Below, piece by piece: positions 42,869 through 51,219 of a stretch of 64,000 bases of DNA. This DNA is from Blastocatellia bacterium (GTDB lineage: Bacteria > Acidobacteriota > Blastocatellia > UBA7656 > JADIYM01): NCBI GenBank assembly GCA_021463145.1, contig JAJTWZ010000015.1, positions 1 through 64,000 of the forward strand. The letters run 5' to 3'. How positions within the stretch are numbered: position 1 is the stretch's first letter; every line of letters starts with the position of its first letter. A program made the position numbers and the translations under genes. The notes under the pieces were generated by a model. The model worked only from the letters and a program-made list of their open reading frames with translations. It searched no databases and had not been told where the DNA came from.

Positions 42869-44836
42869 CTACGGTTTGCGACGGCCGCCGCCGCCACCCT
42901 TGCCACCGCCACCGCTCGGTGCCGGCGCAACGTAAACACGTGGCTGTGGCGGAGGCGACGAACGCTCGACGCGCTCCGCACGCGGCGCGCGTTCGGCCTT
43001 CGTCTCTGCTCGCGGCGTGGATCGTTCGACGCGTTCGGCACGCGGGGCACGCTCGGGCTTCCCGGCCTTCGTCGGACGCTCGACGCGTTCGGCGCGCGGC
43101 GCTCGATCGGACTTTGGCTCGACCTTCACCGGACGCTCCACGCGCTCCACGCGCTCGGGCTTCGTGGTCGATCGCGTCGCCGGACGTTCCACCGGATCGC
43201 GCCGGCGCGGCTTTGCGACCGTCGCCGGTTCGTCATCGGAGCCGGATTCGACAGTGGACACCGGCTTCGAGGACCGCGGCTTTACACTGGCGCCACGACC
43301 TGGAACCGGGCGCTCCTCTCGAACGTTCGGCACGTCTTCGCCGGCCGCGGGCTTGCGCGGAACCGGCTTGATCGCGACGCCCGCCGAGGCGCGGCGAGTC
43401 GGGCGGTCCTTTACCTCGCCATCGCCCGCCGCAGTGCGAGGCTTGACGCCCGTCGCCGACTTACCGTCCTTCACGACCACCGGGCGGTTACGTATCTCGT
43501 CAGTGAGGCCCGGCTTGACGCGCGCGACTGCGAGCTTCATGTCCTTTGGAGCATCGGGCACGACCGCAACCGGATTCCGGCCGCCGAAGGACGACTTCAC
43601 ACCTCCAGGCTCGATTCGCGCTCCGGATCCCGGTTTCGACACGCCGATGCCGCGTCCTTCACGCAGATGGCGTGGAACGAAGTCACGGTCGTGGCGGGCT
43701 CGAAGACGGCTTACGCCAGCGTATGGCTCACCTGGCGCAAGCGGCACCCACGTGTATCCCGAGCCGCCCGGGTTCTGGTACCAGGACACGACGCCCGGAC
43801 ACCACGGGTAATAACTGCTGCCCCAGCCGTAGTCGTAGCCTCCGTACGAGCCATAGCTCGAGAACGGCATCCATGCCCAGCCGTACCCGTTCAGATAGGC
43901 CCAACGGCCGTAATGGAACGGCGCCCAGCCCCACACGTCATTCGAAACGAACGTGTAGCCGTATCCCGGATAGTATTGCCAGTAACCGTTCGAATACGGC
44001 GACCAGCCCGAGCCGACTCTTGGAATCCAGCAACTGCCGAACGACGCGTCGTTGATCCATCCGCCATAGAGTGCAAGTTCGGCCAGTCCGTAGATATCGC
44101 TCCGATACAGCGACGAGGCGACGTTGCCGGAGCCGCGATTCTGGGATTCGTATCGCGCGTAATCCTGGTCGAGGCCTGTCGACCACGAGTCGAACGAGTC
44201 GTAGCCGGTCCACGCCACCAGGTCGACGAGCGAAGGATCGCCGTACGGCATCGAAGCCGTCTCACCCTCGTCGACTCGCACTGTCCGGTCAGGGGTGCTC
44301 ACTTCGGCTCGGCCCTCGTGAACCGACACGCGGGTGTCTCCCTCGTCTGTCACGTCGATCCGGTACGTGCCTTCGTCCTTGATGGTGACCGCCGCGGACG
44401 GCGCGTTGATCTCGAACTCGTCACCGCCGGAAAAATGGCGGAGCGAAACGATCAGGCTACCGACGGGGATCTCGAGGCGGACGGCGTCCGTGTCGAGCTT
44501 CGCTACGACGACGTCCGTGTCGCCGCCGAGCCGCACGTACCGGCCTCCACCGAACTGCAGTTCGAGCCGCGACCTGTCGGAAGTGAAGAACTCGTCGCCT
44601 TCGAAGACCGGGGAGTTGCTGTCCGCGTCGGTCCATTGGGTCGACCCCGGTTGCCGCATCGCCGCGTCGCCGTCGAGCCGAGAGACTCGGCCTACGCGGG
44701 AGGGACCTTCGTCCTCGAGGTTGGGATCGAACGCATTCGATTGTGCGGAAGCAGATTGAGCGCCCACGAACGGGAGCGCCATTGCCGCGACGAGAAGCGC
44801 GACTGGAAGGCGGAACGAAAAACGGGACCAGGACAT
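42869..44836 (-). CDS. Secreted FecR-domain protein with DUF6600-type Trp/Tyr/Gly-rich repeats
   Basis: The 655-residue protein has a signal peptide (ending near ASAQS) and a FecR-like beta domain at about 45-195 (GRVSRLDGDAAMR, VFEGDEFFTSDRSRLELQFGGG, VSVHEGRAEVSTPDRTVRVDEGE). An aromatic repeat region of the DUF6600 kind follows at about 240-370 (GWSPYSNGYWQYYPGYGYTFVSNDVWGWAPFHYGRWAYL, SWYQNPGGSGYTWVPLAPGEPY, quoted in parts). The long basic, proline-rich tail carries three copies of RAPRAERVER. FecR domains normally sense signals for ECF sigma factors, but here the domain is on an exported protein, so a wall- or membrane-associated role is inferred. The gene is monocistronic. Confidence 0.85.
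   Translation of the reverse strand: MSWSRFSFRLPVALLVAAMALPFVGAQSASAQSNAFDPNLEDEGPSRVGRVSRLDGDAAMRQPGSTQWTDADSNSPVFEGDEFFTSDRSRLELQFGGGRYVRLGGDTDVVVAKLDTDAVRLEIPVGSLIVSLRHFSGGDEFEINAPSAAVTIKDEGTYRIDVTDEGDTRVSVHEGRAEVSTPDRTVRVDEGETASMPYGDPSLVDLVAWTGYDSFDSWSTGLDQDYARYESQNRGSGNVASSLYRSDIYGLAELALYGGWINDASFGSCWIPRVGSGWSPYSNGYWQYYPGYGYTFVSNDVWGWAPFHYGRWAYLNGYGWAWMPFSSYGSYGGYDYGWGSSYYPWCPGVVSWYQNPGGSGYTWVPLAPGEPYAGVSRLRARHDRDFVPRHLREGRGIGVSKPGSGARIEPGGVKSSFGGRNPVAVVPDAPKDMKLAVARVKPGLTDEIRNRPVVVKDGKSATGVKPRTAAGDGEVKDRPTRRASAGVAIKPVPRKPAAGEDVPNVREERPVPGRGASVKPRSSKPVSTVESGSDDEPATVAKPRRRDPVERPATRSTTKPERVERVERPVKVEPKSDRAPRAERVERPTKAGKPERAPRAERVERSTPRAETKAERAPRAERVERSSPPPQPRVYVAPAPSGGGGKGGGGGRRKP
42960..43106 (-). 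repeat. Three near-identical in-frame repeats encoding RAPRAERVER
   Basis: Copies lie at about 42960-42992, 43020-43052 and 43076-43106, 54-60 bases apart, in the tail of the FecR/DUF6600 gene. They keep the reading frame and are a likely site of copy-number change. Confidence 0.6.
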
Positions 44837-45192: not shown

Positions 45193-48100
45193 CTACTCCG
45201 CCGACCGGAACTTCGGCGGCTGCAGCACCACGTTCGACTCCGGGTTGTAGTAGTCGTACACGGACGACGGCGCCGCCATCGCGTCGATCGCGTATCGCGT
45301 CGTGAAGCGGAACGAGAACGATGTGCCGCCGGCTTTCGGCCAGAGGTAGACGACGACCCGGTCCGGCAGGACGTCGTACCGGCACACCGTCCACCCACTG
45401 TTTGCGACAGCTCGATCGAGCGACGCCCGGTCGACGTCGTTGCCCGGCGGCAGCCCAACTTCGGCGACGAGCATGCCGTAGCCCAGGCTTCCAACTCGCT
45501 CCGCCGTCACCGCGCACGTGACCTGTGCTCCAACGGGCGCGTCGAGCCGGTCGTACCCGACGGATAGCCGCAACGCAGCTTCACGCTTCTCGGCGTGATT
45601 CGGCCGCGCGGGGTCCCGGCCGGCATCCACCCACGGCACGAAGTGGCGCGCGACGATCTGCGCGAGGATTTTCGAATCGTCGGAGCCCGTCAGTTCGATC
45701 GAGTGTTCGCCGGCGCCGATGGCCGCGGAAAGATCCACTTCCACGGGTGCGGACACGACGGACGCCGCGGGCAGTCCAGCCACGGCAATCGTACGTCCAT
45801 CGACTGCGACGGAGATCGAACGCTCGGCCTTCGTGTCGGCGGATGAACCGCCGACCTGCTCGAGCAGGCAGTCGAGCACCGAAACGGTCGCCTGTGTGGA
45901 ATACCACACCCCGTAACGGTCTTTCCGCTCGAGCAGGAAGAGCGTTCCACGATCCGCGAGCGATCGCGAGTCGGCCGCCGATGCGCCAGCCGGGCTTCGC
46001 CCGGCGTGACGCGCCAGCGCACGGACGACTCGTGCCGTGGTCTCGATCCGTCCGGCCGCTCCCCAGCCGTAGAAGGGGGTGTTCGTCTCGATCGTCCAGT
46101 AGGCGGCCGCGCCCTCGGCGCGCGCCGTCGCCACAAGCCGCGCGACTGCATCGTCGGCCATGGCCGCATCGCCGATGTCCATTGCGGCAAGCGCGATCGA
46201 GGCCGTCAGGTACGGCTCGTCGATGCTCGACGCGATTGGAGCCGCGAAGGCCAGTGCGCGCCGTATCGCGTCGCGGCTCGCATCGCTCGCGAACGCCGGC
46301 ACTTGCTGGACCCTTGCCAGGATGCTTGCAACGTAACCGGTCTCCACGGCGTCGCGGACGCGATCGCCCGTTGAGTACCAGCGTGGCGCTTCCCACCGGC
46401 CGTCAGGTTTCTGTGCCTTCACGAGATAGTCGCGAAGCTGAGTAACGAAAGCCGGATCGACTTCGAAAACGCCGTCGGCATCGAGCAGGAATCGAAGCGC
46501 GTAGGCAGTGAGCGCCGTGTTCGAAGGCGAGTCGGCCCAGTACCCGATCCCTCCATCGGCGGCGCGGTAGGATTTCAGCCGCTCGTAGCCGGCGCGAAGA
46601 AACTTACGTGCGGTTGCTTCGAGTCGGGGTTCCAGCCCGTCCGGCACTTTCTCGAGCAGCAGCAGGCTTGGATAACTCGACGAGATCGTCTGTTCACCGC
46701 AGCCGTAGGGCCGCTTCATGATGCCCTCCACGCTTTCGACGACGTGGGCCATCGGGCTCGGGTATATCTTCAGCTTCGTTTGCGGCGAGCCGAGCGCGTC
46801 GTCCGGCAAGCGGATACCGAGCACTCCCGTGCGCTGGACGAAACCGGAGGACGTCATTATTCGTTCCTCGCCATCCGGATGGACGTCGACGGGCTTTTCG
46901 ATCGCATCGGACGCCCGGGTTCCAAGGCCGGTGACGCGCTGGGCTCCGTCATCGACCGAGGCCGTCGTTCGCACGTCGAAGACCTGCCGCGACGACTGGC
47001 TCGCACCGACGCGAACTTTGCGGCTCGCCGGCCCGTCGATCGCGAACCACGGCGCAGGCTCGATCGACAGATCCACGGACTGGGCCTTGTCCAGGTAGTT
47101 GCGGACGACGACGGGCAGCCCGATCCTGTCGCCTTCCGTCAGCACACGCGGCGGGTCGTGATCGATGAAGAACGGCTGGAACGCTAGCACGTCGGCCGTA
47201 CCCAGGGCGATACGGCCGTCTTGTGTCGACGCGAGCACCGAGAGCTGCCAGGTCGTTATGGAGTCGGCGAGCGGGAACTCGATTCGGGCGCGCCCGTTCC
47301 TGTCGGTCACGATCTCGGGGTTCCAGTAAACCGTTTCGGGGAAGTACTGGCGAAGTCGCGGGGTTGAACGGACCGGCGCGTCGGCGCCTTCCGGCTCGCC
47401 TGAATTCCGTCCGCGGCGCGGGTCGGGCGGAAGGTAGTGAACTTCCCGACGGGTCACCGTCGTGCTGGAACTCGACAGCTCGACCGCGTTGTCCGATGCG
47501 CCAACGACGCTGACGGCCTCGCTCGCGCCCGCTACGCTCAGTTCGAGATCGACCTGGGTAGTCGTACCGGCGCTCACGGGAACCAGTTCGACCGTCGCTG
47601 ACGTGAACCCGCTCGCTTCAACCGAGACCGTGTACCTCCCGGGCGTCAGGTTCCTGAACGCGAAGCATCCATTCGAATCGGTGAGGCCCACTGCGAGCAC
47701 GACCTGCGATCGATCGAGAAGGAGCACGGTCGCTCCGGCGATTACGGAGCCCTGCGGATCGGTCACGGTGCCGGCGATCGAGCCACCAATCCCCTGCGAG
47801 ACCGGGAACACGATCGACGCAGGAAGCGGCACGGGCGCCGGGTCCGTAGCGGACGTGGTGGACCGAACGTGCTCGAACTGCGCGAGAAGCACGTCATCCA
47901 TCGTTCCCGGATAGCGGTCGGCGCCGCGGCTGGTGAGCAGGATTTCGTCGAACTCCTCGGTGACTGGAGTCGTCGTCGTGCGAATAGCCGGGGCCGACGA
48001 GCCGAAGACCGTGGTATTCGAGAACGTCACGCGATTCCGATAGCGGCTTTTGCGGGCAAACGAGGTCTCCGGAGCGGATCCGTACGGATCGACGAGGCTG

Positions 48101-51100
48101 GCGGGATCTATCCCGGCGGCAGCAAGAGCGGAGTTCCAGGTCGACACATCGGTCGGATACGAACCGAGCCCGGCCGCGCGGTCCAGAGCCGCCTGCAGCG
48201 TTGCGGTTCGCCTGGCATAGCAGTCGATGGAGACTCGCGCGATCACGAAGTCGTCGGAGCCGCCCTGACTTTCCGGTCCGAAGCGGCCGTCGGGGCCCGC
48301 GCTCTCGAGTTCCACGAAGAATCGGCCGCCCGATGCTGAGAACCTTGGGGCGTATGGCTTCTTCCACTCGTCCATCAGAACGGACGCATCGATGCCCGCG
48401 GACGCCATAGCGGCCCGGAAGGCCGGCTCGTCGAGTACGAAGCGCCCCGGCTCCACCGTGTACTCGGCGATGGCGGCGGAGATACGGGCCTCCGCGGCCC
48501 TGAAGTACCGATCTCGCTTCTGCGTCACGAACAGATCGTCAACCGTTCCCGGTGTCGCGTCCGGTCCCGCGCTGGACACTGTCAGCACGCGGTACGGACC
48601 GTCTACTCGACTCGACACGACGAGTCGAGACCCCCACGGATCCGCCAGCGGTTCGAAATTTACGCCACCGAACTCAAGCGCCTCGGCGAGCGATTGCTCA
48701 TCGTCAGGATGTTCACGCGGTGATGAGTCGTCCACGATCAAGGCGGAATCGATGGAGCGGCGGAGCTGTTCGATGGCCGACTTGAAGACCCGTTCGAGCG
48801 GGGTCGCGTGCCGGGTTGCCACCTCGACGATGTCGAGATCCTCGTAGGCGTTACTCAGCAGAGCGGCGGCGACGATGTCGAGTTCAGGAGACACGCGGCG
48901 CGACGGATCTCTTCGATTCAGGGAAGAGAGCGTGACGTCACCGATGCGTCCGCCATCGGCCAGACCCCACCACTGCGGCACCCTGAGCCCGCCGTTTGCG
49001 TATCGACCAATACTGTCGAGTCTCGCCGTGACGGACGCGTCGACGGCTGTCACTGCGAGAACACTCTCGGCCCGCCGTCCGCTGCCGTCGCGAACGCGGA
49101 CGGCCGCCGCCAGGGATTCGCCGGGGCTGTAAGTATCGCGCTCCGGATGTATCGCGACCTCGATGTCCGGGTCATTGGGGTAAAGCACGCCGGAACTGTC
49201 TGTTCCGTTCGACGAATACCAGCCGTTGTCCCGGACGGTCGGGTCGATTGCGATCACCGAAACGCGACCGCGGTACTCGGGTCGGTACGGAAACTGGATC
49301 GCCCCGTGGCCATCCCGCAGGGTTGCCCATGCGGACTCGAGAAGTTGCCCGTCCCGTACGGTGCCGACCATCAGCGCCGATGCGGCGCTGGAAGTTCGGA
49401 CGCGGGCCTCGATCGGGTCACCCGCCGCAAGGACCGATCGGACCGCATCCACGGTCACGACGGCACTGTCGGACACGTAGGCCGACTCGGTAGTCGAGCC
49501 TTCCAACCCGGCGCCATCCGTTGCATCGACTCGGATATCGAGTCCCCTGTAGCGCGCCGACGGCTCACCGTGCAGCCGGACGTTGCGAACCGAAGCCACG
49601 CCGAATTTGCTGGTTCGCACCCTGGCGATCGGTATCCACGACAGTCTCGAGCTTCCGTCCGGCGCTACGATGCGCGGACCGGCTTCGCTGACCGTCACGT
49701 CGCACCCAACGACCGTGCCGTCGGCTCGCGTAGTGATGACGAAGAACGAGGTCGACTCGCCGGCCCTCACCTCTCGCAAGCCGGTGACGGCGACGTGAAT
49801 CGGCGCACGTGTAGTGCGAACGTCGAATCGCCGCTCCTCGGTGCGGTTCGTGCTCGGGTCGGTCACGGATGCGACGAAGGACGCATCGCGATAGTCGTTC
49901 CAGCGCTCGCGGGTCAGCGCATCCATCGCTTCCGTGAGATCGAGCGCGGATTCAAATGCGCCGTCGAGCCCGCAGGTGCCTTCGGCGAGGACGGGACCCT
50001 CGTCGTCATCGTCCGCGTTAGTTCGACGATTCCACGAGTCTTCGTCGAAGGCGCGGATTCGAACGCGACCGCCCGGGACCGGTTTGCCGAACAGGTAGTT
50101 GGCCGACACGGTGACGCGCGCGTGTTCGCCAGGAAGGTAGTACGGCCTGTCCGTGGCAGCGCTGACCGTAAACGTCGGCAGATCGTAGCGGCTGACTATC
50201 ACGGTGCTTCGTGCGCTGTCGTCGCTACCGGCCTCGCGCTCGACGGTTGCCTCGATCTCGTAATCGCCGAGCGGAGCGTCGTCGGCGAGAGGAATGTCGG
50301 CAGAGGCAACGCCGAAGCGGGACGTAGTCAGCGTTCGCGCGAAAACGGTCTCTCCGGACTCGTCCTTGACCTTGAAACGGACATCTGTCTTCGCTGCGGG
50401 GCGACGGTCGCGTCCGACTGCGAGAACGCGCGCGTGCAGGGTCTGGCCGGGCTGATAGATGCTCTTGTCGGTCGAGATGAGCAGCGCCAGGTCGCCCGAA
50501 TGTATTTCGAGATGGGCCGACGCCTCGGACCTCAGTGCTCCCTGACGAGCGGACACCTCGACCGATCCGCCGTCGAGTCCCGCAACGTCCGGCACCGAAA
50601 AATGAACGCGCGCCGTGCCGTGACGATCCGTTCGGACCACTCGTTCAAACGTCGCATCCTGGTCGGCATCGAGGTTCAACGCCACACGTACGGATGCTCC
50701 ACGGACCGGCTTCGACGTCGCGATGCTCGACGCAAAGACGTGCACGGTATGTGTCTTTCCCGGAAGCACGGATTCTTCCGTCAGCAACGAGACCTTGAAT
50801 GACTCGGTGACGATCCGCGAGAGCGCGACGATGCCTTCCGTCATCTCGCCGGTTGCGCCGGATGCGCGGATCTCGTACGTCACGCGAGTCGATTCGACGG
50901 TTTCCACGGTCCAGCCGGACGTTATCTTCGTTCCGTCGACTTCGACGGATGCGAGCGCATAGCGGCCCGTTGTTACGATCGCGGCTTCGCCCTCCGCCAG
51001 GGTGAGGCCGGACGGATCGACGAGGCGCACGTGCAGACGTACCGGGGTCCGGGTGTCCGCTCGGCTGCGGACGGTGAGTCGGATCGCCGCTCCATTCGTA

Positions 51101-51219
51101 CGGAGTTCGGCTGTGGATGCCGCGATGTCGACGTCGAATCCGGCCGGCGCGTTCGCTCGCACCAGGACAGACCCCGACGAGGCCATGCAGCAGAGCAGGG
51201 CAAGAGCTCTGAGTCGCAT
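45193..51219 (-). CDS. Giant alpha-2-macroglobulin with thioester, regulatory insert and pseudopilin-like modules (2008 aa)
   Basis: Alpha-2-macroglobulins trap proteases through a bait region and a reactive thioester. A signal peptide (MRLRALALLCCMASSGSVLVRA) is followed by MG domains, including YQPGQTLHARVLAVG. The thioester motif GCGEQTI is near residue 1506, and the alpha/alpha helical domain and receptor-binding-type C-terminus follow. Between about 850 and 1120 stand three modules with DPWG/DPYG and (A/R)GPDG...GT-DD(L/V), like GspG pseudopilin C-termini. A carboxypeptidase-regulatory domain (AGTVTDPQGSVIAGATV) lies at about 1145-1215. ATG at 51219 is preceded by GGGAGA; the open frame to 51360 is rejected. 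No penicillin-binding protein gene accompanies it. Confidence 0.9.
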   Translation of the reverse strand: MRLRALALLCCMASSGSVLVRANAPAGFDVDIAASTAELRTNGAAIRLTVRSRADTRTPVRLHVRLVDPSGLTLAEGEAAIVTTGRYALASVEVDGTKITSGWTVETVESTRVTYEIRASGATGEMTEGIVALSRIVTESFKVSLLTEESVLPGKTHTVHVFASSIATSKPVRGASVRVALNLDADQDATFERVVRTDRHGTARVHFSVPDVAGLDGGSVEVSARQGALRSEASAHLEIHSGDLALLISTDKSIYQPGQTLHARVLAVGRDRRPAAKTDVRFKVKDESGETVFARTLTTSRFGVASADIPLADDAPLGDYEIEATVEREAGSDDSARSTVIVSRYDLPTFTVSAATDRPYYLPGEHARVTVSANYLFGKPVPGGRVRIRAFDEDSWNRRTNADDDDEGPVLAEGTCGLDGAFESALDLTEAMDALTRERWNDYRDASFVASVTDPSTNRTEERRFDVRTTRAPIHVAVTGLREVRAGESTSFFVITTRADGTVVGCDVTVSEAGPRIVAPDGSSRLSWIPIARVRTSKFGVASVRNVRLHGEPSARYRGLDIRVDATDGAGLEGSTTESAYVSDSAVVTVDAVRSVLAAGDPIEARVRTSSAASALMVGTVRDGQLLESAWATLRDGHGAIQFPYRPEYRGRVSVIAIDPTVRDNGWYSSNGTDSSGVLYPNDPDIEVAIHPERDTYSPGESLAAAVRVRDGSGRRAESVLAVTAVDASVTARLDSIGRYANGGLRVPQWWGLADGGRIGDVTLSSLNRRDPSRRVSPELDIVAAALLSNAYEDLDIVEVATRHATPLERVFKSAIEQLRRSIDSALIVDDSSPREHPDDEQSLAEALEFGGVNFEPLADPWGSRLVVSSRVDGPYRVLTVSSAGPDATPGTVDDLFVTQKRDRYFRAAEARISAAIAEYTVEPGRFVLDEPAFRAAMASAGIDASVLMDEWKKPYAPRFSASGGRFFVELESAGPDGRFGPESQGGSDDFVIARVSIDCYARRTATLQAALDRAAGLGSYPTDVSTWNSALAAAGIDPASLVDPYGSAPETSFARKSRYRNRVTFSNTTVFGSSAPAIRTTTTPVTEEFDEILLTSRGADRYPGTMDDVLLAQFEHVRSTTSATDPAPVPLPASIVFPVSQGIGGSIAGTVTDPQGSVIAGATVLLLDRSQVVLAVGLTDSNGCFAFRNLTPGRYTVSVEASGFTSATVELVPVSAGTTTQVDLELSVAGASEAVSVVGASDNAVELSSSSTTVTRREVHYLPPDPRRGRNSGEPEGADAPVRSTPRLRQYFPETVYWNPEIVTDRNGRARIEFPLADSITTWQLSVLASTQDGRIALGTADVLAFQPFFIDHDPPRVLTEGDRIGLPVVVRNYLDKAQSVDLSIEPAPWFAIDGPASRKVRVGASQSSRQVFDVRTTASVDDGAQRVTGLGTRASDAIEKPVDVHPDGEERIMTSSGFVQRTGVLGIRLPDDALGSPQTKLKIYPSPMAHVVESVEGIMKRPYGCGEQTISSSYPSLLLLEKVPDGLEPRLEATARKFLRAGYERLKSYRAADGGIGYWADSPSNTALTAYALRFLLDADGVFEVDPAFVTQLRDYLVKAQKPDGRWEAPRWYSTGDRVRDAVETGYVASILARVQQVPAFASDASRDAIRRALAFAAPIASSIDEPYLTASIALAAMDIGDAAMADDAVARLVATARAEGAAAYWTIETNTPFYGWGAAGRIETTARVVRALARHAGRSPAGASAADSRSLADRGTLFLLERKDRYGVWYSTQATVSVLDCLLEQVGGSSADTKAERSISVAVDGRTIAVAGLPAASVVSAPVEVDLSAAIGAGEHSIELTGSDDSKILAQIVARHFVPWVDAGRDPARPNHAEKREAALRLSVGYDRLDAPVGAQVTCAVTAERVGSLGYGMLVAEVGLPPGNDVDRASLDRAVANSGWTVCRYDVLPDRVVVYLWPKAGGTSFSFRFTTRYAIDAMAAPSSVYDYYNPESNVVLQPPKFRSAE

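Follow-up and report, generated by a model that had tools for sequence, protein, structure and literature searches.

Three GspG-like pseudopilin-tip modules in the bait-domain slot of an acidobacterial alpha-2-macroglobulin

The DNA analysed here is a stretch of 64,000 nucleotides (called the window throughout) from a Blastocatellia bacterium (assembly GCA_021463145.1, contig JAJTWZ010000015.1, positions 1 to 64,000). One gene on its minus strand encodes an alpha-2-macroglobulin (A2M) of the thioester type, in which three tandem modules are homologous to the C-terminal domain of GspG, the major pseudopilin of type II secretion (Pfam family T2SSG); as a matter of sequence homology this relationship is established. 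By alignment, the inserted block, consisting of modules 1-3, linker A, a carboxypeptidase-regulatory domain (CpdR) and linker B, occupies the bait-domain slot of macroglobulins. With moderate confidence, we read the protein as a secreted, Type I-like thioester A2M with a rebuilt bait domain, made of GspG-tip modules, CpdR and a receptor piece, in which the modules would act as spacers for the trap.

All parts expected of a thioester A2M were matched by Pfam above cut-off: the macroglobulin (MG) domains MG2 and MG3 upstream of the inserted block, and the MG6/A2M domain (PF00207), the thioester domain (TED_complement) and the receptor-type C-terminal domain (A2M_recep) downstream of it. The GCGEQ thioester motif is intact, most relatives having GCGEQ or GCAEQ, and a type-I-like signal peptide is present, as are signal-peptide-like N-termini in relatives (by eye). 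MG6 of C3 and A2M is split into two halves, and here the block lies between '..VTAVDASV' of the first half, which we take to correspond to the AVDQSV stretch of human A2M, and 'PRLRQYFPETVYW' of the second half (MG6b). The features are as follows, the gene first and its parts in the order of the protein.

45193..51219, minus strand: A2M gene, 2008 amino acids, ATG at 51219 as residue 1 (open reading frame and Pfam)
49015..49173, minus strand: MG6 first half, residues 683-735, ending near '..VTAVDASV' (alignment with relatives)
48799..49014, minus strand: variable pre-module segment, residues 736-807 (26% mean pairwise identity)
48508..48798, minus strand: pseudopilin-tip module 1, residues 808-904 (DPWG 860; triad D887/D894/D895)
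48220..48507, minus strand: pseudopilin-tip module 2, residues 905-1000 (DEWK 950; triad D977/D989/D990, longer loop)
47854..48219, minus strand: pseudopilin-tip module 3, residues 1001-1122 (DPYG 1044; triad D1101/D1108/D1109)
47788..47853, minus strand: linker A, hypervariable, residues 1123-1144 (14% mean pairwise identity)
47533..47787, minus strand: CpdR (CarboxypepD_reg), residues 1145-1229 (PF13620 match at residues 1150-1230, E = 1.8e-20)
47377..47532, minus strand: linker B, hypervariable candidate bait, residues 1230-1281 (in-register similarity to receptor L157, see below)
47095..47376, minus strand: MG6b, residues 1282-1375, PRLRQYFPETVYW... (PF00207; 64.7% family identity)
45865..46752, minus strand: thioester domain (TED), residues 1490-1785 (PF07678, E = 1.9e-28; GCGEQ at 46704-46690)

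A preliminary description of this DNA, made from its letters, had reported a motif pair recurring three times directly before a carboxypeptidase-regulatory domain, a DPWG or DPYG turn followed by a GPDG-like segment. We found the pair at all three places, with CpdR as the next domain: DPWG 860 with GPDATPGTVDDL, DEWKKPY 950 with GPDGRFGPESQGGSDDF and DPYG 1044 with GADRYPGTMDDV, spanning residues 860-896, 950-991 and 1044-1110 (about 48642-47890 of the window). The second pair begins with DEWK and falls outside the turn pattern first given; in relatives this position reads DRWGKPY or DPWG. When the pair was written as a regular expression, the protein gave three matches; of 5,000 composition shuffles, 4,962 gave none, 38 gave a single match and no shuffle gave two. 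The expression was composed after the sequence had been seen, and conservation in relatives is the better evidence. All members of the aligned comparison set (32 relatives, all Acidobacteriota) retain three modules with the order unchanged, and in most cases their motifs are better than those of the window copy (e.g. DPWGxPYRxxF...SAGPDKxFGTxDDF). Module 3 carries an extra insertion of ~30 residues, within which TPVTQ is conserved in relatives. The modules are mutually homologous in profile-profile comparison (hhalign E-values 2.2e-25 for modules 1-2, 9e-23 for 1-3, and 6.1e-21).

Their relationship to the GspG-type tip, which the preliminary description had also proposed, was borne out by profile searches and profile-profile comparison. 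In comparison with 11 aligned GspG proteins from Acidobacteriota, modules 1, 2 and 3 gave hhalign E-values of 1.8e-9, 4.4e-8 and 3.6e-7. A module-1 profile retrieved GspG chains from the PDB (29jd, 6e-6; 1t92, 3.2e-5; 3g20, 4.3e-5; 5wda, 1.4e-4); the module 2 and module 3 profiles, used alone, retrieved no GspG there at significant E-values. T2SSG (PF08334) matched 11 of 14 family members (best 1.8e-8), and the gspG model TIGR01710 matched 8. The modules, internal to the A2M protein, show neither a prepilin leader nor an N-terminal hydrophobic helix.

Given their homology to the major pseudopilin, the modules could offer the macroglobulin a route to recognising type II secretion machinery of its own cell, or to travelling with it; recognition of such machinery had been raised in the preliminary description. 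Neither GspG nor GspD was found above cut-off in this genome (estimated 100% complete), however, which makes recognition of an own system unlikely. GspG was likewise above cut-off in none of 13 other carriers. Across the phylum, 31 of 199 Acidobacteriota genomes were GspG-positive; the strong triple-module carriers G000, G001, G009, G013, G024, G036, G043 and G062 were not among these 31, where the only genomes matching the modules strongly were G161 and G065. With so little overlap, and with modules that have no hydrophobic pilin helix, we consider this route highly improbable.

The preliminary description had further placed a calcium-binding tip in these modules, and calcium-type ligands are indeed conserved. 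The aspartate in GPD and both aspartates in DD presumably correspond to the side-chain calcium ligands of PulG. Asp stands at these columns in 30/32, 32/32 and 32/32 relatives in module 1, where the triad is near-fixed; it is mostly kept in module 2 (19/32, with 8 more Asn, 29/32 and 28/32) and module 3 (26/32, 26/32 and 27/32). The window protein has the full triad in all three modules; these would bind calcium and be stabilised by it. AlphaFold2 modelled each module as helix, helix and three strands (a1-a2-b1-b2-b3); the mean predicted local distance difference test score (pLDDT) was 83.7 with the three modules in one segment and 84.7 with module 1 alone. PulG has the element order a1-a2-b1-b2-b3, with its calcium site around inter-strand loops (PMC6692295). 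Calcium might instead act as a switch, the modules folding with calcium to hold the native trap, and calcium loss unfolding them and altering bait exposure or triggering. The near-invariant triad of module 1 would suit this, as would the calcium requirement of PulG for folding (PMC6692295). Against it, the ligands are degenerate in several single-module paralogs and, in many relatives, in module 2, and a structural site would look alike; we regard a switch as unlikely.

Which part of the block is the bait was judged from conservation among the relatives. The bait of bacterial A2Ms is a largely disordered stretch whose cleavage releases the thioester arm (PMC4498604). Mean identity is 30-35% for the modules, whose length is near-constant, 37% for CpdR, 64.7% for MG6b and 14% for linker A; linker B shows 19.5% identity and a length of 35-78 residues (standard deviation 10.7). 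The modules are predicted to be well folded (pLDDT 83.7) and are conserved nearly as much as CpdR, and therefore are probably not the bait themselves. Linker B, which adjoins MG6b, is the likelier bait and would hold the cut site, because its sequence and length vary as expected of a bait. The earlier proposal that the modules form the bait region holds for their place, in the bait-domain slot between the MG6 halves, and is not supported for the bait role.

Linker B also points to where part of the block came from. In many relatives it has a TonB-box-like ETVTVTA followed by LPLNGRN..LL.LQPG, the plug-start motif of an Oar-type receptor, and three relatives (L049, L058, L066) have additional plug-like sequence there. 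Linker B segments matched, in one register, a receptor of the same genome (L157, composed of CpdR, Plug and barrel), at best with an E-value of 3.4e-7 and for the window protein 0.004, both from a two-sequence database. Among 71 bait segments, six had a strict form of the plug motif, two of these six (L100, L047) being without CpdR; the motif was absent from the other 102,305 A2M residues. Unlike L157, the window protein has no Pfam match to a Plug or barrel domain. We conclude from these motifs and matches that CpdR and linker B derive from an Oar-type TonB receptor.

With two unrelated inserts both from envelope machinery, the bait domain could be a self-mimic, put together from parts that the cell uses in its own envelope (pilus tip, TonB receptor front end); proteases capable of attacking those structures would then cut the trap instead. 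The confinement of the plug-start motif to bait segments, including the two without CpdR, and the shared register of linker B and receptor favour this. However, the genome has no recognisable GspG to mimic, conserved folded modules make poor baits, and CpdR receptor genes are common in these genomes, where recombination alone could supply the piece. Self-mimicry is therefore, in our view, a minor possibility.

We prefer to read the protein as a protease trap because the thioester motif is intact and relatives have signal-peptide-like N-termini. Once a protease reached the periplasm or cell surface, it would cut the flexible stretch that follows CpdR (linker B); this would free the macroglobulin arms, and the GCGEQ thioester would bond covalently to the attacking protease. 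The three modules may be rigid, calcium-stabilised spacers that keep the bait at a distance from the macroglobulin ring and determine how far it reaches. Bacterial Type I A2Ms are known to work by cleavage of a disordered bait and trapping through the thioester (PMC4498604, PMC5764988). For the window protein we infer protease trapping, the segment cut, the spacer role and calcium binding.

Several results weigh against the trap with spacers. Searches of Pfam, NCBIfam and the PDB with the window protein alone missed the modules; the protein by itself has no T2SSG match, and its modules are assigned through alignment to other family members. Foldseek against the PDB gave spurious long matches for the three-module model, with no GspG among the hits listed, and nothing significant for module 1, PulG (1t92) being second of 385 (E = 0.27, template-modelling score 0.34). 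The first PulG structure is described as calcium-free, with a misfolded C-terminal end (PMC6692295). Should 1t92 be that structure, the score may be lower as a result. Of the GspG-like fold anticipated for the modules, the PulG element order appeared in the model and a significant structural match did not. In ~40% of relatives module 2 has lost its first ligand Asp, which means that not every module can depend on calcium. Finally, the geometry of the spacers on the macroglobulin ring is a guess.

The preliminary description had proposed looking for the same module order in acidobacterial macroglobulins, and the family proved widespread in the phylum. A search of 58 related genomes gave full-length relatives that showed 33-40% identity along the greater part of their sequence. 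Another 34 loci came from a scan of 84,980 species genomes with query A5 (an earlier scan with A1 gave no usable pattern). Nearly all of them carried an Acidobacteriota label (Blastocatellia, Pyrinomonadaceae, Acidobacteriaceae, gp2, gp4 and unclassified); loci from other phyla matched chiefly in the MG6b part. In a tree of 121 modules, module 2 rows formed one group (support 98/91) and module 1 and module 3 rows clustered with few strays, on a short alignment with many weak forks. This clustering suggests that the triplication probably predates the spread of the family, that is, a single old event before the divergence of the 32 relatives.

Single-module A2M relatives were also found: L092 (same genome), L093 and L096, and, in other acidobacterial families, L146 and L148, the latter with T2SSG above cut-off (23.0 bits). 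Planctomycetota A2Ms (L068, L071/L159, L072, L160-L163, L165) have a tip in the same slot, assigned by motif or by eye; Pfam gives these tips no score. Free-standing proteins of 124-130 amino acids (L149, L150, L152) carry one tip module and have no pilin helix, at least one of them being lipoprotein-like. No plasmid-borne relative was found.

One might take the modules as passengers, common extracellular domains without a specific role in a bait slot that tolerates insertions. Copy number does vary, being one or three in Acidobacteriota, and Planctomycetota have other inserts, including several predicted membrane helices; but three modules in 32/32 relatives, at near-invariant positions across several families, make this doubtful. 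Nor do we think it probable that macroglobulins of at least two phyla assemble bait domains from envelope-machine parts (pilus-tip modules, TonB-receptor front ends) as self-mimicking decoys for proteases that attack the envelope, with module copy number tuning the reach of the trap.

Other arrangements were seen among the relatives. L092 (C90:4500-12500) is a second A2M of the same genome, whose bait slot holds one tip module, CpdR and a linker rich in Gly. L099 and L145 are tandem arrangements in which the A2M gene has a shorter neighbour (1329 and 1397 amino acids) that keeps modules and has no thioester motif. L161-L163 apparently have several helix-plus-DPWG-like repeats ahead of the tip module. 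By eye, several predicted membrane helices lie inside the A2M bait slot of L067, L069, L074, L075 and L167-L176, some ending in pilin-like stretches, e.g. LAALLLPALASARK (L174). A reading of such membrane inserts in other phyla as pilin helices was unsupported by Pfam or NCBIfam.

Among known systems, the Type I bacterial A2Ms (E. coli YfhM/ECAM, Salmonella SaA2M) share the MG domains, a bait slot inside an MG domain, the TED with its CXEQ thioester and the C-terminal receptor-type domain. Their bait is largely disordered, whereas the slot of the window A2M is ~550 residues long and holds modules predicted to be folded; in its family no recurrent gene neighbour of the PBP1c kind was seen, and signal peptides have no obvious lipobox. 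Vertebrate A2M and CD109 are the best PDB matches, over the MG6b-TED half; to our knowledge they have a short unstructured bait and no inserted folded domains. With the GspG/PulG C-terminal domain the modules share the DPWG turn and the GPDG..DD calcium-type loop, and the AlphaFold2 model gives them the same element order; they differ in having no prepilin leader or hydrophobic helix, in standing as three tandem copies inside another protein, and in the module 3 insertion. With Oar-type TonB-dependent receptors that carry CpdR (e.g. L157) the window A2M shares CpdR and, behind it, the TonB-box-like stretch with the plug-start motif, but it has no full plug domain and no barrel. Among gene neighbours at 24 loci, none recurred except A2M itself and one peptidase-like open reading frame in 3 loci. 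Downstream of the A2M gene, at 42869-44836 on the minus strand, lies a gene for a FecR-like protein with a Gly/Tyr/Trp-rich middle, not a conserved neighbour.

A literature search, most subscription journals being outside its reach, returned no paper with both 'macroglobulin' and 'pseudopilin'; its other matches were general A2M papers only, and we found no published description of the module arrangement. Bait regions are thought to be largely disordered; this slot contains conserved domains, predicted to be folded, that were taken from a different machine. Their order is kept in many lineages of a single phylum, and a second phylum has single-tip relatives. The arrangement lets one ask what a bait domain contributes beyond offering a cut site. 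It also presents a pilin-tip domain employed away from any filament, of which natural one- and three-module versions exist.

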